From: a virus
Length of the DNA: 30,438 nt
IMG/VR virus record: IMGVR_UViG_3300033153_007431
Span: 1-30,438 of that record
Strand: one strand, 5' to 3'
Shown in pieces: positions 4,571 through 17,187 of this stretch; position 1 is the first letter of the stretch, and each line of letters opens with the position of its first letter. The position numbers and the translations under genes are program-made. The notes under the pieces were generated by a model. It was not told where the DNA came from. It made no database searches and worked only from the letters and a program-made list of their open reading frames with translations.

Positions 4571-6184
4571 ATGTATATATTTGAGCCCAGAGAGGGAGCG
4601 AATTACAGGCATGATTACGAGAAGATTGCGGGTGATTTGAATGCTGCTGCTGAGCACAGGCGTCATGGAGAGGTTTTAAAGATATTCAGGGCATTTTGCA
4701 GGAGTGATTTATTTTTTCTTATTTATTTTGTTTTAAATATTGTAAATATTAACCATCCTTGGTTGGTTGATAGGTGTAATGAGGTACAGGATAATCATAA
4801 CAGGACTTTGGATTTATGGGCGAGGTATCATTACAAGAGTACGATAATTACGTGTGCGTTACCTATACAGAATATATTGATAAATCCTGAGAGCAGGTTA
4901 TGTATTATTAGTCATACGAAGGACATTGCCAAAGGGTTTTTAAGGCGGATAAAGTCTATATTTGAGACAAATGAGATTTTAAAAATTGCTTTTGGTGATA
5001 CAAGTGAGCCTCAGTATAATATATTATTTAACAAGCCTAAGACTCAATCTCCGAAATGGAGTGAAGATGATGGGCTTATAATTAAGAGAAGTGGTAGTTA
5101 TGATGAAAGTACAATTGAGGCTTATGGTCTTGTAGATTCCGATCCGACTAGTAAGCATTTTACCGATATAGATTTAGATGATATAGTTGTAAGGCTGGGA
5201 GTTTCTACTGCGGCACAAAGGCATAAAGTAGACAGAGCTTTTAGTATGGTTTTTGGATTACTTGATAGGCATGGAAGCATAAGAGCCACAGGTACAAGAT
5301 ATCATCATGGCGATCAGCATAGTAAGATGATAAAATCGGGTGAGTGGATGGTCAGAGAATATCCGGCAACATTCAAGGGAGAATTTCCGGTAAAGCCTGA
5401 AGGCGCAAAGGATAGGGTTATAGCGCTTGGAGAAGACAAGCCTGTGATGTTGACGGATAGAGAGATTTGGCAATCTTTTAAAGATTTTGGACGATCTTCA
5501 TTTGCCTGTCAAATGTTGTTACGACCTGAAAAAGCGGATGTCAAGGGTTTTGATATTGAGTGGTTTAGATATTTTAAAAAGAAGCCGTTTACCAGAAATT
5601 ATATATTTGCAGACTCCGCTAATTCAAAGAAGTCATCAGCCGATTTTACGGTTATGTGGGTTATAGGCATAGATGTTAGAGGTTACTATTTCGTATGTGC
5701 GGGAGTTAGAGATAGATTGGGATTAAAAGAAAGAGCCTCTAAGTTATTTGCTCTGGTAGAGGAGTGGAGACCGTTAAAGGTATACTATGAGGCTTACGGT
5801 TTACAGGCGGACATTGAGTATATTGAGGAAAAACAGAGAGAAGAAGGTATTATATTTAGGGTGCAGCCGACTGCCGGTAAGATGGCTAAAAGCGAGAGAA
5901 TAGGACAATTACAACCCTTGTTTCAGGATGGAAAGATATTGTTCCCCGAAGTTATGAGTTATAGAGGTGTAGATAAAAAAATGTACAATTTGACTGAGGT
6001 ATTTATAGATGAGGAGTATATAGATTATCCGGCTTGTGAATATTTTGATATGCTTGATTGTCTGGCTCGGATAAAAGACCCAAAGGTCAAAATGGCACGT
6101 CCGGCTTTTACAGAACCTGAAACCGAGAGAAAACATGATTGGATATTTGATACGGAAGAAGAAGGCGACTGGATGACAGTATGA
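4571..6184 (+). CDS. terL: Terminase large subunit
   Basis: This is the ATP-driven DNA-packaging motor and nuclease. The ATPase half has a variant Walker A (ARYHYKST, residues 84-91), a strand RLCIISHT (109-116), and an acidic Walker-B-like patch ending DLDDIV (201-206). The nuclease half has the RNase-H-like acidic residues expected of the family: IFADSA with D348, VYYEAY with E407 and YFDMLDCLAR with D493/D496. Length 537 aa is normal. There is no clear ribosome site before the ATG at 4571, so translation may be weak or initiate in an unusual way. The stop overlaps the portal start (ATGA at 6181), typical of terminase-portal coupling. Confidence 0.92.
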   Translation: MYIFEPREGANYRHDYEKIAGDLNAAAEHRRHGEVLKIFRAFCRSDLFFLIYFVLNIVNINHPWLVDRCNEVQDNHNRTLDLWARYHYKSTIITCALPIQNILINPESRLCIISHTKDIAKGFLRRIKSIFETNEILKIAFGDTSEPQYNILFNKPKTQSPKWSEDDGLIIKRSGSYDESTIEAYGLVDSDPTSKHFTDIDLDDIVVRLGVSTAAQRHKVDRAFSMVFGLLDRHGSIRATGTRYHHGDQHSKMIKSGEWMVREYPATFKGEFPVKPEGAKDRVIALGEDKPVMLTDREIWQSFKDFGRSSFACQMLLRPEKADVKGFDIEWFRYFKKKPFTRNYIFADSANSKKSSADFTVMWVIGIDVRGYYFVCAGVRDRLGLKERASKLFALVEEWRPLKVYYEAYGLQADIEYIEEKQREEGIIFRVQPTAGKMAKSERIGQLQPLFQDGKILFPEVMSYRGVDKKMYNLTEVFIDEEYIDYPACEYFDMLDCLARIKDPKVKMARPAFTEPETERKHDWIFDTEEEGDWMTV

Positions 6185-8040
6185 AGAAGAAGAAGAAAGA
6201 TATAATTGAAGAATATAATGAATGTTTACATGTACTTACTCCTTGGCGAGAGAAAGCCAAAACTTGTTTTAGAATGTATTTAGGCGATCAATGGTATGGG
6301 ATTAAATTAGAGGGTAGTCCAAAAAGACCTAAAACAGTTACAAATAAAATTAAAAAGGCTGTCGATACAATAGGAGGTCATCAAAGACAAAATAGGCGAG
6401 ATATTAAGGCTTTTCCGATAGAAGGCGCTGATGATAAGAAAGCTGAAATTTATACGCAATTATTTAAGTGGACATTAAAAAACAGGGGGTATGATAGGAA
6501 TTTTAGTACTGCCTCAAAGGATTCTTTAATATCGGGTTTAGGTTGGGTCCATCCTTATATGGATTTTTCCACGGATATTTATAACGGTGATTTGAAAGTA
6601 ATGCATATTAATTTATTTGATATGGTTTGGGATCCGTATTTAAAAGAGGCAGATTTGTCCGATTGTTCCAAATTATTCAGAGTTTCTTATTTAACTAAAG
6701 CCGAGTTAGCGTCTAAACATCCTAAACTCAAAAAAGAAATCAATGAGTTGGAAGAACCCCGTCTTGCCTTGGGGCTTTTCAGGGTTAAGAATGTCAGAAT
6801 TAAAGATAGGGTTAGAGTAATTGAAAAGTGGTATAGAGATTATGAGGAAAAGAGCTTTGTTATAGATATGAATACAGGTGAGACTCAGCAATTTAAAGGG
6901 AGTGAGAGGGACGCTATCGCAAGATTTAGCGAACTTGGTATTGAAAATATTGTAATACAGAAACGTAGCATACCTGTAATGAAGTTTGAAGCTATTGCCG
7001 GAGATACTTTGGAGTTAACTAAAGGCGAAAGCCCTTATTCTCTTACTCAATATCCGTTTATACCAATTTTTGCTTATTATGATCCGTCTTTTGATGAATG
7101 GGAATGGAAGGTGCAAGGTATTCCTGCGGTCTTAATCGATCCGCAAAGAGAAGAAAATAAACGGAGATCGGAACTTATGGAATACACTTTGAGTATGATA
7201 AATGCGGGTTATACAAAAATAAGGGGTTCTAATATTGATGTAAATCAACTAAAAGCTCCGGGTATGAAAATTATAGACGTTGACGATCATGATGATTTGA
7301 GACCTATTGTAAATTCCGATTTACATCAGCCGATAGTACAGCTGATACAAATTTCCTCAAAAGATATGAAGGATGCGGGTCCTAATGCCGATGCTTTGGG
7401 TATAATAGGACAGGGGAGTAGTCCTGATGCAAGCGGCAGGGTTGTAAGAACGAGAATAAATCAGAGTTTAATGTCTATGCAAGAGCCTTTTGATAATGAG
7501 TCAGCGGCACAACGGCTTTTAGGTAATTGTATGATAGAGATGATAAATGAAAACTATAGTAAAACTAAGATAGAGCGTATTATAGGAGAAGTAGAAGAAA
7601 TTAAGGAGTTACGAGAAAATTTAAAGAATGTTCCGCAACCTCAAAACGAACAAGAAGCTCAGGCAATACAGCAACAACAGGCCGAATTAAAAAGGTTGAC
7701 AGATGAAAATGAGCAGTTTTGGATGGATTTTGAAAAGTCAAAAGATGATGCTATTTATGATTGTAAAGTTGACGAAGTTCAAAGTACTCCGACTTACAGA
7801 ATTGCAATCTCAGCTCAATTAATGGAGTTAGCTCATCAAGGTCATCAAGTACCGGAGGAAATAATGGTTGAGTATCTTGATTTGCCTCATGAGGATAAAA
7901 AGAAGTATTTGCAATCAATACAGGCAAGAAGGGAGGCCGAGGCAAGAGAGAAGCAAGAAGAACGCGCATTTAAGATGGAACTGGAAAAAATGAAACTGGA
8001 GTATAATTTAAAGCAAGCAACAGTTAGTAAAATGGCTTAA
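6181..8040 (+). CDS. P22-like portal protein
   Basis: The portal forms the dodecameric ring at the capsid vertex through which DNA is packaged. The 619-aa protein has N-terminal features of the P22-type portal family: YLGDQWYG (about residues 33-40), VTNKIKKAVDTIGGHQRQNR (about 54-73) and a conserved GLGWVHPYMDFS patch (about 118-129). A C-terminal helical segment rich in Gln and Glu (about 465-520) and a charged tail (about 580-619) match the helical barrel of P22-type portals. It is coupled to the large terminase by overlap and followed by the scaffold gene. A perfect 7-bp inverted repeat (CTTAATT-TTAT-AATTAAG, 8036-8053) spans its stop and the next ribosome site. Confidence 0.88.
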   Translation: MKKKKKDIIEEYNECLHVLTPWREKAKTCFRMYLGDQWYGIKLEGSPKRPKTVTNKIKKAVDTIGGHQRQNRRDIKAFPIEGADDKKAEIYTQLFKWTLKNRGYDRNFSTASKDSLISGLGWVHPYMDFSTDIYNGDLKVMHINLFDMVWDPYLKEADLSDCSKLFRVSYLTKAELASKHPKLKKEINELEEPRLALGLFRVKNVRIKDRVRVIEKWYRDYEEKSFVIDMNTGETQQFKGSERDAIARFSELGIENIVIQKRSIPVMKFEAIAGDTLELTKGESPYSLTQYPFIPIFAYYDPSFDEWEWKVQGIPAVLIDPQREENKRRSELMEYTLSMINAGYTKIRGSNIDVNQLKAPGMKIIDVDDHDDLRPIVNSDLHQPIVQLIQISSKDMKDAGPNADALGIIGQGSSPDASGRVVRTRINQSLMSMQEPFDNESAAQRLLGNCMIEMINENYSKTKIERIIGEVEEIKELRENLKNVPQPQNEQEAQAIQQQQAELKRLTDENEQFWMDFEKSKDDAIYDCKVDEVQSTPTYRIAISAQLMELAHQGHQVPEEIMVEYLDLPHEDKKKYLQSIQARREAEAREKQEERAFKMELEKMKLEYNLKQATVSKMA

Positions 8041-8771: not shown

Positions 8772-9770
8772 ATGTCAACAAATGTGTACAGTGATAATAT
8801 AGATCCGGGCAACGAATATTTATATATTCGAGAAATGCTTGAGGTCGGAAGGCCGTATTGTATTCACGATATGGCAGGTGAAAAAGTGTCCTTTAAAAAA
8901 AGGAGTGGCATGAAAATTAAGTTTAGGAGACATAATCTTCTTGATGAAATGACTACTCCCGGCAAAGAGGGCGTAACTGGCGCTCCTGCTCCTGTATCAA
9001 AGGACGATATTACTGCTGATTTAAAGTGGTATAAGAATTATGTAAAACTTTCTGATGTTGCAGTAGATACTAATGTTGAAGATGTAAGGATGATATATTC
9101 TCAGCGATTAGGTGAGAATATGGAAGATTCAAGAGATTTGATATATCGAGATGCTTTACTCGGCGGTACTTCGGTGTATTACGGCAATAACGTGGCAAAC
9201 AGGGGTAGTGTTATTACCAAAATTGAGGAAAACGATCTCGAAGCAATTGATAGATTGCTGTTCGACAATAAAGCCAAGTATTTTACCTCAATGACAAAAG
9301 GAGATACTAAATTCGGTACTTCATCCATATTGCCGTCTTATCTTGTTTTTGCACATGGACATACCAAAAAAGATTGGCTGGCTTTAACCGGATGGGTGCC
9401 TGTATCGGACTATGCGGGACAGATACATGTTTACCCAAGTGAGATTGGTAATTGGAATAACTATAGAGTTATTCTTACTCAACACGGTAAAATAGAGAAG
9501 GATTCGGGTGCTGCCGTTGGGGGATCCGGATTAAAGAGTACAAGCGGTGCAAATATAGATGTCTATCAGACTTTAATTTTTGCCAAAGGGGCATATCATT
9601 TCTGCCCTCTCGACGGAAGTAATGTAAGGAATATTGTACATGACTTTGGTTCTGCAGGCTCGGAAGACCCTACAAATGATAGAATGACTATCGGTTATAA
9701 GTATGCTACCTGTCTGGCAATTACTCAAGACTTAAATATGTGTAGACTGGAAACAGGAGCATCGGAATAA
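8772..9770 (+). CDS. Major capsid protein, N4-gp56 family type
   Basis: The 332-aa protein follows the scaffold gene and has the pattern of the N4-gp56 type HK97-fold coat proteins: KRSGMKIKFRRHNLL (about 43-57) before TPGKEGVTGAPAP (about 62-74), then WYKNYVKLSDVAVDTN (about 87-102), RDLIYRDALLGGTSVYYGN (about 121-139) and a later segment with SYLVFAHGHTKKDW (about 189-202) and VYPSEIGNW (about 222-230). The start has an AAGGAG site with the same spacer as the scaffold gene. It would be the most abundant virion protein. No maturation cleavage site is obvious. Confidence 0.82.
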   Translation: MSTNVYSDNIDPGNEYLYIREMLEVGRPYCIHDMAGEKVSFKKRSGMKIKFRRHNLLDEMTTPGKEGVTGAPAPVSKDDITADLKWYKNYVKLSDVAVDTNVEDVRMIYSQRLGENMEDSRDLIYRDALLGGTSVYYGNNVANRGSVITKIEENDLEAIDRLLFDNKAKYFTSMTKGDTKFGTSSILPSYLVFAHGHTKKDWLALTGWVPVSDYAGQIHVYPSEIGNWNNYRVILTQHGKIEKDSGAAVGGSGLKSTSGANIDVYQTLIFAKGAYHFCPLDGSNVRNIVHDFGSAGSEDPTNDRMTIGYKYATCLAITQDLNMCRLETGASE

Positions 9771-9808: not shown

Positions 9809-10534
9809 ATGGATAGTGTAGTAAGTGGTAAAGTAATAGGTACCGGGGCCGAATTGGATGTAGTAGTAGGCTTTAAACCGGCAAGAGTAGAATTGATGAT
9901 CTCCGAAAGTTCCATCAAAGGTTTTTGGGATAATTCGATGCGAGATGCAGTTTTTCTTATTGAGTATTGTGCAGAGTTAAGAACCGGTGAGATACTCTTA
10001 GGTTCTCACTTGCCTTTAATCGGTACTACCGATACTCAGATCGCAAATACTCGGTGTGTTACTCAACATGATGCCGCCGGTGATGTAAGAGTTGAGGTGG
10101 CCGCTGTAGCGGCAGGTACAGCTTTTGCAGGTGCTGCCGATGATATTACGGCTGACAAATGGGGATGCTATAAGGTATGTGCTGCCTCCGGCGGTGCTAT
10201 CTCTATTACGCCTGATACAAGTCTTGCAAATGATACTGAGGCTGAGGCAATTGCTAATATGGGTGCCACACCTGCCAATGAAGCTGTTCTTGGTTATGTA
10301 ACTGTTAAAGCTACTGCGGGTGCGGTATTTGATGCGACTACAGATGCTTTGGCCGGTGGAACTTCGGGTACTCCTGCTGAGAAAACCAATTATTATGCCG
10401 GTTATGGCGTAATGTCAAACGGTATAACCGTCTATGGCGGTGGAACGGATACTTTCAGAGGTTTTCGTATTGGAACCAATGCAGGATTGAATATACTTGG
10501 AAGTGAGATATTCTATAAAGCGTATAGGAGTTAA
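9809..10534 (+). CDS. Virion protein with repeated module (copy A)
   Basis: Lying directly after the coat gene, this 241-aa protein is probably a capsid-associated decoration or minor head protein. Residues 1-80 form a compact N-terminal part rich in beta-prone residues. Residues about 96-197 are a module (FAGAADDITADKWGCY ... LGYVTVKATAGAVFDATTDAL) that recurs in the next protein and inside the adaptor at 12104. The last 40 residues (TFRGFRIGTNAGLNILG...) form a short C-terminal part. The composition is Ala, Gly and Thr-rich, like surface-exposed phage beta-domains. The ribosome site GAAGGAG is good. Function is inferred from place and composition only. Confidence 0.6.
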   Translation: MDSVVSGKVIGTGAELDVVVGFKPARVELMISESSIKGFWDNSMRDAVFLIEYCAELRTGEILLGSHLPLIGTTDTQIANTRCVTQHDAAGDVRVEVAAVAAGTAFAGAADDITADKWGCYKVCAASGGAISITPDTSLANDTEAEAIANMGATPANEAVLGYVTVKATAGAVFDATTDALAGGTSGTPAEKTNYYAGYGVMSNGITVYGGGTDTFRGFRIGTNAGLNILGSEIFYKAYRS

Positions 10535-10537
10535 ATT

Positions 10538-11734
10538 ATGGCCAGAATATCAAGTAAAGGAATGAAAAGTTGGCGAGACCTTGAGAAGATTGTCAGGAGT
10601 ATATCTACCGATCTTGACGCTCTTGCTGTTCTTGTTAATGAGCTAAGAACTGACCATGGTACGGCTTTGATATGGGATACAGAATCGGAAGCTGATCAAG
10701 ATGCAATTGCCAACTATAATCATTTTATGAATGAGGCTGATGGTGTTATAGGTGGCGACTATGCCTTTTCAGCTACTGCAGCCCCAACGCTTACGGGTGC
10801 GGGCTATGTTAAGTTCCGGTTAGACGGTCAGATATACCATTTTCCGCTTGATACGACTATTACCCTTGAGGATAATGCTGGTGCTGCCGATATAGCAGAT
10901 GGAAAAAAGGGATCGTGGCGTATTTTGATGGATAAATTGGGCGCTGTAACTACTCAAAAAGCTGCGGATAATCAGCAGTTTACGGCTGCTGAAGATTCTA
11001 TGCTTAACCTGAGTAATGTTGCTCAGACTGCCGATACTGTTTGTATAGGCTATTTGACAATAGCAACAGCCGGCGCTGTTTTTAATATCGGTACAACTGA
11101 TCTGAACGCCGGTACTGCTACGTGTACGATGTATTATGAGCGTGGGAATAGAAAGCAGATTACCGGTCTTCATGCTGCTCTTGGTTCTGAGACAGTGGCT
11201 ACCCCAGGAGCTAATACGGTAAACATAGGAACTATTGACGCTAAAATTCAAGGTGTTAATGTTGCTCAGATAGCTGCTAATGCGACAGACGCTATTGATG
11301 ATGCGGATATAATCTCTACTCTGAAGTGGGGCGCTTGGGTGTTTGTAACAGACCTTGCAGGTACGGCTACTTTTGCGCTGGCTGCTGATGGTGTTGCAGG
11401 CACTGCGTCAACGATGGCCTATGCGTCGGAGACAGCGCTGGATGCGGCCCTTGTAACCTTGTTTGACAACTTGCCTTCTGTATTTTGTCCAATCTGCGTG
11501 GTTAAAGTATATAATAAATCGGCAGGTGATTTTACAGGAGCTACTACTAATTGGGATGCGGCTGATATGGTAACTACCGTAGTTGATTGTACGGTCGGTA
11601 AGTGGGATAGGACTAATTTATCAGGTGTTGATACTCACAGGATTAATCCACCTACATTGCCGGAAAATATAGTTGCGCCTTTGGTTACTGCAATAACAGC
11701 GCCTGAAATTTCGTTACAGACTTCACAGACATAA
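10538..11734 (+). CDS. Virion protein with two copies of the repeated module
   Basis: The 398-aa protein begins with a helical stretch (about residues 10-40), then two copies of the same module seen in the preceding gene. Copy B1 covers about 91-201, with FTAAEDSM, CIGYLTIATAGAVFNIGTTDL and a final MYYERG. The more divergent copy B2 covers about 236-343, with DAIDDADIISTLKWGAW and PICVVKVYNKSAGDFTGAT. A short C-terminal tail contains two ITAPE/TSQT-like elements. It is probably a head decoration or fibre-like protein, with the helices serving for trimerisation; this is inference. The start follows AGGAG inside the end of the preceding gene. The stop lies in an 18-bp tandem duplication. Confidence 0.6.
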   Translation: MARISSKGMKSWRDLEKIVRSISTDLDALAVLVNELRTDHGTALIWDTESEADQDAIANYNHFMNEADGVIGGDYAFSATAAPTLTGAGYVKFRLDGQIYHFPLDTTITLEDNAGAADIADGKKGSWRILMDKLGAVTTQKAADNQQFTAAEDSMLNLSNVAQTADTVCIGYLTIATAGAVFNIGTTDLNAGTATCTMYYERGNRKQITGLHAALGSETVATPGANTVNIGTIDAKIQGVNVAQIAANATDAIDDADIISTLKWGAWVFVTDLAGTATFALAADGVAGTASTMAYASETALDAALVTLFDNLPSVFCPICVVKVYNKSAGDFTGATTNWDAADMVTTVVDCTVGKWDRTNLSGVDTHRINPPTLPENIVAPLVTAITAPEISLQTSQT

Positions 11735-11751
11735 CAGACTTCACAGACATA
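11716..11751 (+). repeat. 18-bp exact tandem duplication across a stop codon
   Basis: The unit ACAGACTTCACAGACATA occurs twice, back to back. The first copy contains the last codons of the gene ending at 11734, so the second copy repeats the same six-codon end after the stop. Probably a slippage event. Confidence 0.8.
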
Positions 11752-11758
11752 AAAATTA

Positions 11759-11780
11759 AGGCGGGTGTAAAAGCCCGCCT
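11759..11780 (+). promoter_or_regulatory. Intercistronic GC-rich hairpin
   Basis: AGGCGGG and CCCGCCT pair perfectly over 7 bp around an 8-base loop. No U-run follows, so it is more likely an mRNA processing or stability element, or a weak terminator, than a full stop within the virion operon. It lies 18 bases before the start at 11799. Confidence 0.5.
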
Positions 11781-11798
11781 GAAATTTAGGAGATACCA

Positions 11799-12107
11799 AT
11801 GGGGAAAATAGTAAAAGTAATAGTAACAAATACTGATTTATGGGGAGACAGAGAGGATACTGGTCATAAAGTTATGACAGGTGACGGAGTAGAGAATATT
11901 CTTTATGACAAGGAAATATGGATTTCAGAGAAATGTTACTGGAATTTAAAGAACGCTATACCTATTGAACACTTTATGAAAGAAGACTCTCAGAGAGAAA
12001 GAACATATAAACCTGCCCCAAGATTTAGAATTGAGAAATTAAGCGATTTTATTGATGAGAAAGACAAACCGAAAGAGACGAAAAAAAAGGAAAAGGTTAA
12101 TGCATGA
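11799..12107 (+). CDS. Hypothetical virion-region protein, 102 aa
   Basis: A good AGGAG site precedes the ATG, and the stop overlaps the adaptor start (ATGA). The first 65 residues look like a small mixed alpha/beta domain (KIVKVIVTNTDLWGDRED, KEIWISEKCYW); the last 20 residues are lysine- and glutamate-rich and probably disordered. Position between coat-associated proteins and the adaptor suggests a small head or connector protein. I do not recognise a family. Confidence 0.6.
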   Translation: MGKIVKVIVTNTDLWGDREDTGHKVMTGDGVENILYDKEIWISEKCYWNLKNAIPIEHFMKEDSQRERTYKPAPRFRIEKLSDFIDEKDKPKETKKKEKVNA

Positions 12108-13144
12108 CTCTTTTGGAAATATACAATAGGGCTGTGTTTTATATTTATGGCGATCAGAACGTACCTTCTCATATCACAACCCAATTACAAGGCGGAATTA
12201 TTCCGGGTATTCATAGACGAATACAGGAAGAATTTAACTACTGGTTTATGGAATCCGATGATGGCATAAATACTATTATAGATGAGCGTGAATATGTTTT
12301 GCCTACTCATTTTAAGAGTGAGGTAGTATTTGCATTTTTAGATGACAATAATGTTAGACACGATCCTCTGAAAAAATTGAGGCGTGGTCAAGACACTACT
12401 GAATTTCCGAATATAGATGATAGCGTTGAATGGCCTACTCATTACGAAATATGGAAAAACAAGATTATTCTCTATCCTAAACCAAGTCATGTCCATTTAT
12501 TGACTTCTAAATTTTATGAGTATATTCCTAAACCTCTTACAGGACTTGATAATGCCGTTGTTTTATCAGTTGGCACAGCCGATGATACGAAAATAAAGAG
12601 CACTGCTATTAACTATCGGATAGGCGGAATCTCTTATACAAAAGTTCTTGCCGAGACTGCTTTTACTGCAGGTGAAGATGTAACGGCTGATTGCTGGGGT
12701 ACTTATTTATTATCTATTGATACTGCCGGCGATTTGACATTAACACAGGGTTCGATAATGAATGGGGCAACCGAGGCAGATGCTATTGCCGGACTTGCAG
12801 ATACACCTACCGGTGAGTGTAGAGTTGGATATTTGACAATGACCACTGCTGCGGGAGTTATATTCGATGCCGGAACAGACTCCCCCGAAGGCGGGGTAAG
12901 CGGTAATGTGTCTTTAGCAACTAATTACTACCCCGATGATATATATACAGATGATTTACTTGATGAAGCAAGTGAACTTATTGTTTTTATGACGTGTCTT
13001 GAAATTGAACAAATGTTAGAGCATGACCCAAAGAATATTCAATTGTTTATGCAGAGAATAGGACAGGAATTGAAGGTTTTGAGAGGCAAACATGAAGACA
13101 AGGCTTATGCAAATTTTAGAGAATTAGAGTATAGAGATGCCTAA
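12104..13144 (+). CDS. Head-tail adaptor protein with inserted module
   Basis: Adaptors sit under the portal and connect it to the tail. The first 145 residues have the pattern of podovirus adaptors of the SU10/P22-gp4-like group: helical start (TLLEIYNRAVFYIYG), EREYVLPTHFKSEV (about 61-74), a WPTHYEIWKNKIILYPKPS core (about 110-128) and a strand KFYEYIPKPL (about 136-145). The last 70 residues are helical (DDLLDEASELIVFMTCLEIEQM onward). Between them, residues about 159-277 are a copy of the module found in the proteins at 9809 and 10538 (FTAGEDVTADCWGTY ... VGYLTMTTAAGVIFDAGTD). A typical adaptor lacks such an insert, so this looks like domain insertion into a surface loop. The gene overlaps its upstream neighbour (ATGA). 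Confidence 0.72.
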   Translation: MTLLEIYNRAVFYIYGDQNVPSHITTQLQGGIIPGIHRRIQEEFNYWFMESDDGINTIIDEREYVLPTHFKSEVVFAFLDDNNVRHDPLKKLRRGQDTTEFPNIDDSVEWPTHYEIWKNKIILYPKPSHVHLLTSKFYEYIPKPLTGLDNAVVLSVGTADDTKIKSTAINYRIGGISYTKVLAETAFTAGEDVTADCWGTYLLSIDTAGDLTLTQGSIMNGATEADAIAGLADTPTGECRVGYLTMTTAAGVIFDAGTDSPEGGVSGNVSLATNYYPDDIYTDDLLDEASELIVFMTCLEIEQMLEHDPKNIQLFMQRIGQELKVLRGKHEDKAYANFRELEYRDA

Positions 13145-13277
13145 AGGTATAAACGAAAAACTCTGGAATAAAGCCAAAAAGCTTGCCGAGAAACAAGGTC
13201 GTAAAGACGATTATAAATACATTATGGGTATTTATAAAAAAATGGGCGGCTTTGGACTAAAGGAGGTCTTAAAATAA
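13137..13277 (+). CDS. Small basic protein, 46 aa
   Basis: The frame begins at an ATG overlapping the adaptor end and runs 46 codons. The sequence INEKLWNKAKKLAEKQGRKD followed by DYKYIMGIYKKMGG is a short lysine-rich two-helix motif that I associate with small proteins or protein ends in phage structural operons. Its role is unknown. The stop TAA overlaps the ATG of the following tiny membrane peptide. Confidence 0.6.
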   Translation: MPKGINEKLWNKAKKLAEKQGRKDDYKYIMGIYKKMGGFGLKEVLK

Positions 13278-13366
13278 TGAATATTACAGAATTTATATTT
13301 TTTGTTGTTTTAGCAATTTTTGCTATATTTTCAATCATAATAACAGACAAACAATCATTTCCTTAA
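13277..13366 (+). CDS. Tiny membrane peptide, 29 aa
   Basis: An AAAGGAGG site (13259-13266) lies 10 bases before the ATG, stronger than that of most genes here. The peptide is one continuous hydrophobic segment (residues about 5-22, FIFFVVLAIFAIFSIII) with a short polar tail. It overlaps the upstream stop by one base. A role in the membrane during infection or DNA entry is possible. A protein this small could also be a translational coupling device for the tail gene at 13381. Confidence 0.5.
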   Translation: MNITEFIFFVVLAIFAIFSIIITDKQSFP

Positions 13367-13380
13367 TAAAGTGGTTAAAA

Positions 13381-14307
13381 ATGCACTTCAAGAATATACC
13401 CCTATTTAAAGGATTAATTACTAACTACCATGACCGAATAGTACCGGACGATCATCTTATCGAATGTCAGAACGTGGTTTTTGATAAAGGAAGGGTCAAG
13501 ACAAGGTGCGGGCTGATAGAGTATGGCAATAATGTACCTATTGGCGATGCCTCTAATAACGATGATGTAATTGAAGTTATTGATTTTAGACACATAAAAG
13601 AGAATAAAGAGAGGAGAGTTGCAATCACAAGGCTTGACTCATGGTGTTATTGGGATAATAACTGGATATGTATAACAAAGAAATACGTTGACGGACAGGC
13701 TGCCTGTGCCGGAGTTACAGCCGTAACCGGAGCAGGTACTAATTGGGCTGAAACTTGGGTATTTAAAGGACAAGCATATATAAAATTCGGTAATACGGAT
13801 GTAGACGCTGCCGGAGATTGGTACGAAATAGTTAGCGTGGACTCTACAACCGGCTTGACTCTGGCCTCTGCGGGGCCGAATACAGGCGGTAATGTTGAAT
13901 ATGTAATTAAGTTTTGCTGGGATAGCGCAGAGAGAGTTGATTATACGTTTGGATTAGACTCCGATGCCGAGAAGGTTTTGATTGTAACGAACAAAGACGA
14001 TTTTATTCAGAAATGGGAGATGAATGGATGCTTTGAGGAGCTTGGTAAAGACGGAGTAGCAGAGCTTGTAATACCTGATATGTTTTCAACTGACTTTGAA
14101 GGTGACGCAAGATATCATGCCGTAGCTGCTGCTTATAACGGCAAGGTATATGTAGGCACAGGGTGGACAGGTACGCCCTTAACAAGAGACTGGTGGGAAT
14201 ATGATATAGCAACTTCAACTTGGACACAATTAACCGATTTTGGAGGTGTTGCAAGACGAAGTGCCGTAGCTGCTGCTTATAACGGCAAAGTTTATGAAGT
14301 GCCGTAG
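13381..14307 (+). CDS. Nozzle-like tail protein, N-terminal fragment (frame broken)
   Basis: This is the N-terminal part of one tail gene that continues at 14334 and 14627. The start (MHFKNIPLFKGLITNYHDRI, then VPDDHLIECQNVVFDKGRVKTRCGL) is typical of podovirus proteins encoded after the adaptor, which build the tail nozzle or stopper (P22 gp10-like position). A beta-rich middle holds a T-A-V-T-G-A-G-T-N-W patch. From about residue 240 it enters kelch-type repeats (AVAAAYNGKVYVGTG, DWWEYD). The frame ends early because a 38-bp exact duplication (14258-14333) shifts it. With this and an 8-bp duplication at 14611-14626 removed, the frame is open from 13381 to 16363 for 978 residues. Confidence 0.75.
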   Translation: MHFKNIPLFKGLITNYHDRIVPDDHLIECQNVVFDKGRVKTRCGLIEYGNNVPIGDASNNDDVIEVIDFRHIKENKERRVAITRLDSWCYWDNNWICITKKYVDGQAACAGVTAVTGAGTNWAETWVFKGQAYIKFGNTDVDAAGDWYEIVSVDSTTGLTLASAGPNTGGNVEYVIKFCWDSAERVDYTFGLDSDAEKVLIVTNKDDFIQKWEMNGCFEELGKDGVAELVIPDMFSTDFEGDARYHAVAAAYNGKVYVGTGWTGTPLTRDWWEYDIATSTWTQLTDFGGVARRSAVAAAYNGKVYEVP

Positions 14308-14333
14308 CTGCTGCTTATAACGGCAAAGTTTAT
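14258..14333 (+). repeat. 38-bp exact tandem duplication causing a frameshift
   Basis: Positions 14258-14295 and 14296-14333 are identical. The 38-bp addition shifts the frame and creates the early stop at 14307. The duplication junction coincides with the end of the 114-bp exact repeat. Confidence 0.9.
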
Positions 14334-14726
14334 GTGGGTACGGGTGGTTGTGAAGGAGGACTTACAAGAGACTGGTGGGAGTATGATGTTGAAAATGATG
14401 GGTGGGCGCAATTAACGGACTTTGGCGGTACTGCGAGGCAGGATGCCGTAGCTGCTGCTTATAACGGCAAGGTATATGTAGGCACAGGGTGGGAGGGAGG
14501 ACTTACAAGAGACTGGTGGGAATATGATATAGCAACTTCAACTTGGACACAATTAACCGATTTTGGAGGTGTTGCAAGACGAAGTGCCGTAGCTGCTGCT
14601 TATAACGGCAAAGTTTATAAGTTTATGTGGGTACGGGATATAACGGAGCATACTTACAGGATTGGTGGGAATATGACATTGCCGGTGACGCTTGGGCTGC
14701 AATGGCTAACTTTGGCGGCGGTATAA
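14334..14726 (+). CDS. Nozzle-like tail protein, middle fragment (kelch repeats)
   Basis: This is the second reading-frame segment of the broken tail gene. It opens with a GTG right after the 38-bp duplication and codes for two complete kelch units (DWWEYDVENDGW and DWWEYDIATSTW). After 14618 the 8-bp duplication moves the true frame away, so the residues beyond that point (KFMWVRDITEHTY onward) are out-of-frame noise. It is not expected to be an independent gene: there is no suitable ribosome site, and the start falls within a repeat. Confidence 0.55.
   Translation: MGTGGCEGGLTRDWWEYDVENDGWAQLTDFGGTARQDAVAAAYNGKVYVGTGWEGGLTRDWWEYDIATSTWTQLTDFGGVARRSAVAAAYNGKVYKFMWVRDITEHTYRIGGNMTLPVTLGLQWLTLAAV
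14611..14626 (+). repeat. 8-bp exact tandem duplication causing a frameshift
   Basis: AAGTTTAT occurs twice, at 14611-14618 and 14619-14626, just before GTGGGTACGGG, exactly as at the 38-bp duplication. It shifts the frame a second time and marks the end of the second copy of the 114-bp repeat. Confidence 0.9.
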
Positions 14727-16363
14727 GGGCGAGTGCCGTAGCTGCTGCTTATAACGGCAAGGTATATGTAGGCACGGGGGGTAATCCGGCATTACAACAG
14801 GATTGGTGGGAATATGACATTGCCGGTGACGCTTGGGCTGCAATGGCTAACTTTGGCGGTACTGCAAGATACGAGGCCATAGCCGTTGTTTGTGATGGCA
14901 TGGTGTATTTGGGTACGGGAAACGATGGGGCAAATACAGACGATTGGTGGGAATACGATATAGCTGGTGACGCATGGACAGGTGATGACCACACTATGGT
15001 AATGCTACCTAACCTATTCGTAAGGCTTGACGGGCTTTGCTATGGGAAGAAAAAGCACGCTGTAGATATTTCAGCCATAAATGTAACCGATAGCAAGTGG
15101 GGATTGTTTGGGTTTGAAATGGATCCTACTGACCAGATAGTAGATAACCTTGATTCTCCCGGTTCTCCTCAAGCCTATGATACGCCGGAGGATGCCATAA
15201 ATGCTTGGCCTGACGCTACTGCGGATCATTATCGGCTTTGTTATGTAGTAGTAAGAAAAATAGGAGCTGATTTTATTGGGCAGACAACTTGTTTTGATGG
15301 GGTTGGAGTAACTTCTACATTCTGGTCTGCTTATTCGCTGAATATAGTAAATAGAGCAAAATACGTTCATTACTACAATGATAAACTATTTCTTGGAAAT
15401 GTTGTTGATACAGGAGAAGAGTTCAAACAAACTATTCAATGTTCAGTTACACAGGATTTTGAAGACTTTTCGGGCTATGGATCGGCTTTGCAAGACCTTA
15501 TCCAGAGTAAAGGTGAGGTTATGGGCTTTAAGCAATTACGGAATAAACTATTTCCCTATAAGTCCGATTCAATATGTTTGGTAGAAACTACCGGTAACTA
15601 CCTTGAACCGATTAGAGTAACGGAAGGAATTGTAAGAAATATCGGATTAGTGTCTATTCGGACGGTTATCGATATAGAGAATTACCATATATTTCTTACA
15701 AGAGACAACATTTATATATTTGATGGAATTAACTTGCAGAGTATAGGAGATAACATTAAGAATGATTTATTTTCTTATATGAACATGGATTTCATAAATA
15801 CATCGTTTGCTTTTAATATTAAGGAAGCGAATATCTATGTATTAAACACAGCTACTGTTCAGCGGTATTGTGATAAAGCTTGGATTTTTGATTATAAAAA
15901 GAAAGAATGGTCTCACTGGAAATGGGGGAAGCAAATTAGTAGTGGAGAACTATATTACGAAAACAACAATTCTATTCTTTTACTCGGCGGTACAGACGGA
16001 TATGTTTATAAAATGGATAAAGCTGCAACTGATGATAGCGGTACAAATATAAGCTCGTATATTATGACGAAGGATTACACATTAAATGAACCTGAAAAGT
16101 TATTTAAACTATTAAAATTAATAATAAATATAGACCCTGAAGCAGACGGACAAGACATAAGAATTACGGCAAGTACTGATTATGGAGCAACATGGAGCAA
16201 CAATATAGATATAACAACAGATGCCTTTACTACTCATATTGTTAATTTCTTTAGAAGGGGTAGAACTGTAAGATTAAAGATAGAAAATATATCAAGTTCA
16301 GTTCTTGATATTGAGTCTTTAAACATAGGCTTTTCGGCATCGGGATTTGAAAAAGAAAAATGA
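14627..16363 (+). CDS. Nozzle-like tail protein, C-terminal part
   Basis: The third frame of the broken tail gene begins at a GTG immediately after the 8-bp duplication. Residues about 1-118 of this part hold the last three kelch units (QDWWEYDIAGDAW twice, then DDWWEYDIAGDAW). Residues about 133-237 resemble the module repeated in the head genes, though more divergent (INVTDSKWGLFGFEM, HYRLCYVVVRKIGADFIG). The rest is a second propeller-like region (YVHYYNDKLFLGN, HIFLTRDNIYIFDG, DKAWIFDYKKKEWSHW, LLGGTDGYVYKMD) and a C-terminal beta-sandwich (DIRITASTDYGATW ... RGRTVRLKIENISSS). These match the general architecture of P22 gp10-like/nozzle proteins. The stop overlaps the start at 16360. Confidence 0.75.
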   Translation: MGTGYNGAYLQDWWEYDIAGDAWAAMANFGGGIRASAVAAAYNGKVYVGTGGNPALQQDWWEYDIAGDAWAAMANFGGTARYEAIAVVCDGMVYLGTGNDGANTDDWWEYDIAGDAWTGDDHTMVMLPNLFVRLDGLCYGKKKHAVDISAINVTDSKWGLFGFEMDPTDQIVDNLDSPGSPQAYDTPEDAINAWPDATADHYRLCYVVVRKIGADFIGQTTCFDGVGVTSTFWSAYSLNIVNRAKYVHYYNDKLFLGNVVDTGEEFKQTIQCSVTQDFEDFSGYGSALQDLIQSKGEVMGFKQLRNKLFPYKSDSICLVETTGNYLEPIRVTEGIVRNIGLVSIRTVIDIENYHIFLTRDNIYIFDGINLQSIGDNIKNDLFSYMNMDFINTSFAFNIKEANIYVLNTATVQRYCDKAWIFDYKKKEWSHWKWGKQISSGELYYENNNSILLLGGTDGYVYKMDKAATDDSGTNISSYIMTKDYTLNEPEKLFKLLKLIINIDPEADGQDIRITASTDYGATWSNNIDITTDAFTTHIVNFFRRGRTVRLKIENISSSVLDIESLNIGFSASGFEKEK

Positions 16364-17187
16364 AACTTACAAGAGATACTGTTTTACCTAAATTACCTGA
16401 GAGCGAAGAAGACGTTACTCGTTTTCGACAAGAGAGTATTCAAGAGGCAGAAGATGTTAGAAAATCTACTACCGATGACATCGATCATCTTTATATTTAT
16501 ACTAAACCATCTTATGTAAATTTAAAGGTCAAACGGGCAAGTGCCAGCACGGTAACAGTTGAATGGAGCGCTTTACTAATCGGAGACACTTATCACGAAG
16601 ACCCTAACGGATTTACAAAGACTTTAGATATAATTACCGATCTTGATACAGGCGGTAAAGCCGCAAGTACTTGGTATTATATATGGGCAATTGCGACAGA
16701 AGACGGAAGGGCAAGTTGTATATTTTCTGTAAGTTCAGACGATCCGGTCTATCCTGCTAATTATGTTCATAGACGGCTTGTCAGTATGGTATATAATAGC
16801 GCAGGTGGTAATTTTGTGGACTTTACGCAAGAAAATGAAATGTATATGTATAGTACATGGCTGTTGGCTTTGAATAACGGTGGTGCAGGTGCGCCAGCCG
16901 TAGTGCCTTTAACAGTATTTGTTCCTGAAGCTGTATATTGGGTTAATATATCTATGTATTGCGATAGGAATATTGCTGGGACACAAACATTACAGGCGTA
17001 TGTTCTTGGTTATGTTAATGATACTTACATACGGCAATTAAGAATAAATTTACTCAGCTATTCACAAAACTGGCATACGCTTGTTGAGGAAAAGTTTATC
17101 TTTACATCAAATAGGAATATTCAATATTATCAGGATCCCGCAGATGGAGTATATATATATGTAGGCGGCTTTAAGGTAGAACTATGA
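16360..17187 (+). CDS. Tail protein, possible fibre or receptor-binding protein
   Basis: The 275-aa protein starts within the stop of the nozzle-like gene. A charged helical N-terminus (about 10-45) would attach or trimerise. Residues about 50-150 are beta-rich with STWYYIWAIATEDG and VHRRLVSMVYNSAGG, resembling domains in phage fibre proteins and loosely the module of the head genes. Residues about 165-275 are a beta-rich C-terminal domain (VPLTVFVPEAVYWVNISMYC ... DGVYIYVGGFKVEL). Position after the nozzle fits a short tail fibre or tip. Receptor binding is inference. Confidence 0.55.
   Translation: MKLTRDTVLPKLPESEEDVTRFRQESIQEAEDVRKSTTDDIDHLYIYTKPSYVNLKVKRASASTVTVEWSALLIGDTYHEDPNGFTKTLDIITDLDTGGKAASTWYYIWAIATEDGRASCIFSVSSDDPVYPANYVHRRLVSMVYNSAGGNFVDFTQENEMYMYSTWLLALNNGGAGAPAVVPLTVFVPEAVYWVNISMYCDRNIAGTQTLQAYVLGYVNDTYIRQLRINLLSYSQNWHTLVEEKFIFTSNRNIQYYQDPADGVYIYVGGFKVEL

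Follow-up and report, generated by a model that had tools for sequence, protein, structure and literature searches.

In the parts of the literature drawn on here (Fraser et al. 2006; for T4 Hoc and the adhesins of gut phages, PMC13370021), the promiscuous Ig-like domains of tailed phages appear as accessory β domains on diverse virion proteins, and those of phage surface proteins (T4 Hoc, gut phages) bind mucin or epithelial surfaces (PMC13370021). The BACON domains of crAss-like phages are compact β domains that are often repeated in phage proteins and whose ligand is uncertain (PMC6949934). In phage SU10, the nozzle has Ig-like domains between its propeller blades and the adaptor has radially protruding fibre-dock loops (PMC9509320). 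Domain mosaicism, the shuffling of fragments among receptor-binding and tail proteins, has been described with stress on tail fibres, spikes, endolysins and polymerases (PMC10684548). The subject of the present account is a module of ~130 residues that recurs in virion proteins encoded by the window (the whole of a stretch of viral DNA of 30,438 bases, IMG/VR virus record IMGVR_UViG_3300033153_007431). Comparison of its sequences strongly supports the view that one homologous module spreads as a mobile insertion domain among the virion proteins of uncultivated tailed phages.

The module resembles each of these systems in part. Like the promiscuous Ig-like domains it occurs on diverse virion proteins; unlike them, it is inserted inside adaptor, decoration and Mtd proteins. 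It shares a compact β character and repetition with BACON domains, but its copies are dispersed over several genes instead of forming one tandem array. The likeness to SU10 consists in insertions or extensions in the same two tail-protein classes (a likeness of protein class), and the module, unlike the SU10 inserts, occurs outside the tail as well. To the known mosaicism it adds the adaptor, the nozzle and the head decoration protein.

Relatives were gathered by degenerate-pattern scans of IMG/VR. A profile made from other viruses only (foreign-only profile), by which circularity is avoided, was scanned against the 75 open reading frames (ORFs) of the window and matches exactly four of them: those at 9809 (E=9e-36), 12104 (2e-28), 10538 (4e-8) and 14627 (2.5e-6). 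As controls, ~3000 composition-preserving shuffles of each segment were scored with the same profile. The copies are placed as follows:

10016 to 10399, plus strand: copy A, in gene 9809-10534, directly 3' of the major capsid gene; 111.7 bits, 0 of 3000 shuffles as high
10754 to 11140, plus strand: copy B, in gene 10538-11734 (a coil-like N-terminal part, then two domains); 25.8-29.8 bits, 0 of 3000 shuffles
11177 to 11593, plus strand: copy C (probable, the most divergent), in gene 10538-11734, shared with copy B
12548 to 12934, plus strand: copy D, inserted in the head-tail adaptor, gene 12104-13144; 95.1 bits, 0 of 3000 shuffles
15023 to 15331, plus strand: copy E, inserted in the nozzle/Hc3 protein after the kelch array, gene 14627-16363; 23.1 bits, 0 of 3000 shuffles

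Copies A, B, D and E are confirmed as one homologous module. Identity between A and D is 41%, with E=1e-19 when their own genome is searched, and hhalign aligns copy E with the foreign-only profile at a probability of 91%. Copy C is probably a further copy: its foreign-only score of 9.9 bits is weak (2 of 3000 shuffles reach it), and the grading as probable reflects the higher score obtained once the other window copies are added to the profile (20.9 bits, 0 of 3000 shuffles) and an hhalign probability of 75% (P=2.6e-5) against the foreign-only profile. Ala, Thr and Gly abound in the segments, and this, together with the weakness of C, is what an explanation by composition alone would call upon, β proteins of this kind resembling one another by chance. 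For A, B, D and E, which score above all composition-matched shuffles, that explanation is rejected on the strength of the shuffles and the foreign-only profile; similarity of DNA that stops at the domain edges and a confidently predicted fold (both below) also stand against it, and it retains a negligible probability.

The original prediction, made from this sequence, had placed the repeated segments in these ORFs, and there they are, with homology confirmed for A, B, D and E and probable for C. It had taken the module to be ~110 residues long; the module instead comprises ~130, reaching further toward the N-terminus, so that the predicted starts at residues 96 (A), 91 (B) and 159 (D) move to about 70, 73 and 149, respectively. 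Its 'head and tail proteins' are more exactly a head protein (the gene beside the capsid gene), an unassigned protein, the adaptor of the head-tail connector, and the nozzle. Of the checks that it proposed, profile-profile comparison gave the hhalign values just cited for E and C, and the search for insertions in related phages found the module inserted in many backbones of other viral contigs.

The module is present in 35 non-redundant viral contigs (34 besides the window, counted from the loci returned), with motifs conserved across the family and an open reading frame kept at every copy found. One of these contigs, L003, shares its gene order with the window (capsid gene, A-like gene, B-like gene, a small gene, adaptor, nozzle) and has three copies; another, G005, has four. 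Searches of Pfam, the PHROGs and PDB sequences returned nothing significant over the module in the proteins scanned; in particular, no Ig-like Pfam profile matches over it in these proteins, another respect in which it is unlike the Ig-like domains, and no BACON match turned up in the Pfam scans. A tblastn search of 50,697 phage records with three window proteins and four single-domain queries yielded no acceptable match (five Streptomyces matches at E=7 were disregarded), and two pattern-based scans of bacterial and archaeal genomes in GTDB found no module, their low sensitivity making this no proof of absence.

At least seven backbones carry the module: the SU10-type adaptor, the nozzle (Hc3), the phrog_766 head-decoration protein, the product of the capsid-adjoining gene, coiled-coil proteins, a pectin-lyase-type protein (in contig L050) and Mtd orthologs. 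Two of those in the window are:

9809 to 10534, plus strand: backbone of copy A, adjoining the major capsid gene in four phages
12104 to 13144, plus strand: adaptor backbone of copy D; BLASTP against the L003 adaptor, with the domains cut out, E=1.8e-24

The window adaptor has no direct match to PF24175 (SU10_adaptor; cut-off 27 bits), even with D excised. The L003 adaptor matches this family in two pieces (46.1 bits) that become a single piece of 54.1 bits when the module is excised, and excision raises its phrog_2941 score from 19.5 to 29.4 bits. The insertion sites in the two adaptors differ (the window copy follows ...YEYIPKPLTGLD, the L003 copy ...YEMPNLYGDYI), which implies two or more gains, or else a single gain and a move. 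The L003 adaptor is empty at the site of copy D, and the adaptor of contig L023 has neither insert. On the capsid side, the backbone of A is related to proteins of L056 and L069 (hhalign 98%), and an A-type backbone lacking the insert was not found in named phages. With the module excised, neither the A nor the D backbone has a significant match in Pfam or the PHROGs. In contig L007 the module lies inside a phrog_766 head-decoration protein, the score of which rises from 44.4 to 49.5 on excision. The module is also often joined to coiled-coil-like segments. (Some of these coiled-coil-like proteins, at L013 3563-4597, L027 3554-4270 and L064 1832-2929, begin, or nearly begin, with a stretch resembling a signal peptide, which is unusual for virion proteins.)

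The nozzle of the window is encoded in a region of three frames:

13381 to 16363, plus strand: nozzle/Hc3 region; frames 13381-14307, 14334-14726 and 14627-16363, with kelch repeats and copy E

The region matches phrog_3287 (E=3e-22) and phrog_578 (E=7e-11), along with kelch Pfam families; no relatives of its N-terminal part were found. In contig L009 the nozzle has the module between ...YVTNNVDRIKRW and ...CKFLIFYKERI. The corresponding place is occupied in the window by the kelch repeats and copy E (a similar insertion point) and is empty in L003. The nozzle-like protein of L003 (11134-13893, 919 amino acids) has an extended insert of repetitive, propeller-like sequence at another place; the nozzle proteins of this group thus vary by different inserts. 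Within the near-identical kelch array of the window, the first frame break (14258-14334) coincides with an exact 38-nucleotide tandem duplication and the second (about 14590-14630) with a short duplication; these breaks could reflect phase variation, strain heterogeneity or assembly error.

Where copies in different backbones are similar as DNA, the similarity ends at the domain borders. Between L006 and L007, for example, the aligned segment is 266-643, the domain 251-649 and the identity 72%; L006 and L017 are likewise similar only to the edges. The adaptor copy of L003 belongs, in the domain tree, to a clade of eleven (support 100/99) that does not contain copy D of the window, its nearest relative being the nozzle copy of L009 (64% identity), and the fewest backbone changes that the tree allows are seven. 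The idea that a single mobile domain sits on unrelated backbones therefore now has behind it the backbones enumerated above, the two adaptor sites, the edge-limited DNA similarity, the improvement of backbone matches on excision, and homologs with empty sites (the L023 adaptor, the L003 nozzle, and the Mtd protein of phage BPP-1, considered next). A separate proposal, that D was copied from A within the same genome, was weakly supported (88/68) and lost when long rows were dropped.

The major tropism determinant (Mtd), the tropism-switching protein of Bordetella phage BPP-1 (NC_005357), is without the module. In the L024 ortholog the flanks of the module are 39% (over 104 residues) and 41% (over 268 residues) identical to it by blastp, and the module itself sits at residues 127-259, between the Mtd second domain and the C-type lectin domain. 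Further Mtd proteins with the module are those of L044 (phrog_11262) and L045 (by similarity to L044). The protein of L044 is the target of an apparently complete diversity-generating retroelement (DGR) cassette at 4976-6590, consisting of variable repeat, a small ORF in avd position, template repeat and reverse transcriptase (3.9e-21); the two repeats form a pair of 119 nucleotides in which 11 of 12 mismatches are at template adenines. It is a tentative suggestion that the module behaves as a protein-level mobile element, copied again and again to fresh positions in the same virion gene or in another; a single phage would thereby bear one binding module on its head, connector and tail, and at least one lineage would carry it on a retroelement-diversified receptor-binding protein, a constant adhesion function next to a hypervariable one. 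In the window itself, no reverse transcriptase was found when looked for, and a protein encoded at 16360-17187 has a weak match to the Mtd second domain (E=0.0015).

The copies in L044 (residues 208-380) and, by similarity, L045 (85-262) are also peculiar in arrangement: the module lacks its N-terminal strand segment at the start and has it after the end instead (in L044 the relocated segment scores 12.8 bits, 0 of 868 shuffles as high). The module thus looks circularly permuted in these proteins, as would fit a domain whose ends lie close together. Meeting ends would also suit a tolerated hitchhiker, a domain that inserts harmlessly and spreads without having any function, and the variable presence of the module, its many sites, the divergence of B, C and E and the apparent permutation in L044 are compatible with that explanation. 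The family-wide conserved motifs, the open frames and the repeated retention in virion proteins make it improbable.

The module is confidently predicted to be an independently folding, mostly β domain. An AlphaFold2 model of copy D, made with 23 domain sequences, has a predicted local distance difference test score (pLDDT) of 92.7 and a predicted template modelling (pTM) score of 0.85, and is built of β strands and one short helix. The model of the full A protein (pLDDT 77, its central domain part mostly 82-96) repeats the predicted order of strands and helix, the two models being not fully independent in that their alignments overlap. Both share neighbours in BFVD (A0A6J5NJH9, Bacillus phage G Gp255 and R4THG1 among them), and the neighbours found there include tail-fibre or receptor-binding proteins. 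The PDB structure search with the D model gave no match at E<=0.001 (best E 0.08); the weak Foldseek leaders are Mtd 1yu1 (probability 0.63, query-normalized TM score, TMq, 0.43), the phi812 baseplate and the A-1(L) tail fibre. Antibody domains reach TM scores of only about 0.2 in the PDB search of the β model, and no Ig-like domain stands at the top of the fold matches. These leaders, with the BFVD neighbours, are what would recommend the module as a diverged form of some phage fibre domain already known, for instance the second domain of Mtd (a claim about ancestry, compatible with mobility and with any function). The copies nevertheless lack a match to PF21916, no PDB match is significant, and in L024 the Mtd second domain and the module stand side by side: PF21916 matches residues 35-117 there and not the module, and hhalign of the second-domain region against the module gives 0.2%. 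Such an ancestry is accordingly considered rather unlikely.

What the module does is a matter of analogy. The reading that is somewhat favoured is of a mobile, outward-facing β module that provides accessory, low-affinity adhesion to polysaccharides. Its DNA would spread through illegitimate recombination in loops that permit insertion, with selection acting afterwards. Its copies would stick out from the surface of head, connector and tail and help the virion to adhere, at low affinity, to polysaccharides on the host or in its surroundings. If the SU10 stoichiometry holds, a virion would have 12 adaptors and 6 nozzle proteins; such multiplicity would confer avidity, and specificity would stay with the dedicated receptor-binding protein. 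Outward facing is plausible because of the architecture of the SU10 adaptor and nozzle and the presence of the module in decoration and Mtd proteins; binding to glycans or surfaces is the best guess, for which the promiscuous Ig-like domains provide the analogy.

Several points weigh against this reading. When both adaptor copies are forced into one clade, rejection is only borderline (approximately unbiased test, p=0.05-0.06), so that independent gain rests mainly on the different adaptor sites. In the Mtd protein the module stands outside the variable lectin tip. Surface exposure is argued from the backbones and the SU10 structures, that is, by analogy; no binding residue, pocket or ligand has been identified for the module; and with no significant solved match for the model, function is not transferable from the fold. 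The main rival is a structural role, in which the module braces adjacent subunits, sets their spacing or serves as a dock for fibres, and has no binding partner beyond the virion. In SU10 the nozzle domains stabilise the tail and make contact among themselves and with the short fibres (PMC9509320), adaptor and nozzle are also two of the protein classes that carry the module, and its frequent linkage to coiled-coil-like segments points in the same direction. Its other hosts (decoration, Mtd and pectin-lyase-type proteins) have entirely different neighbours, for which reason a specific brace would be hard to share, and related adaptors and nozzles do without the module; a purely structural role is thus judged possible but doubtful, and outward-facing adhesion is preferred to it.

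The record encodes terminase, portal, major capsid and nozzle/head-closure proteins, the order of their genes being suggestive of a short-tailed phage, and the four module-bearing genes extend from the capsid gene to the end of the nozzle gene. Upstream of them lie:

6181 to 8040, plus strand: P22-like portal protein (PF16510, E=3e-70)
8772 to 9770, plus strand: major capsid protein (phrog_1357, E=5e-36)

At 352-1796 a DUF5131 (radical-SAM-like) gene adjoins an RNA ligase gene.

The module is a real, unannotated and mobile family of virion domains that belongs with the promiscuous accessory domains of phage virions and lies outside Pfam and the PHROGs. It adds an unannotated family to the few promiscuous virion domains known, and it shows that domains of this kind enter connector, nozzle and decoration proteins besides fibres. 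Its clean insertions and their empty homologs (the Mtd relative among them) constitute direct pairs with and without the module that bear on the role of accessory domains, and the insertions mark sites in adaptor, nozzle and decoration proteins that apparently tolerate an insert of 130 residues. A Pfam or PHROG family made from the module would annotate proteins in dozens of viral contigs.
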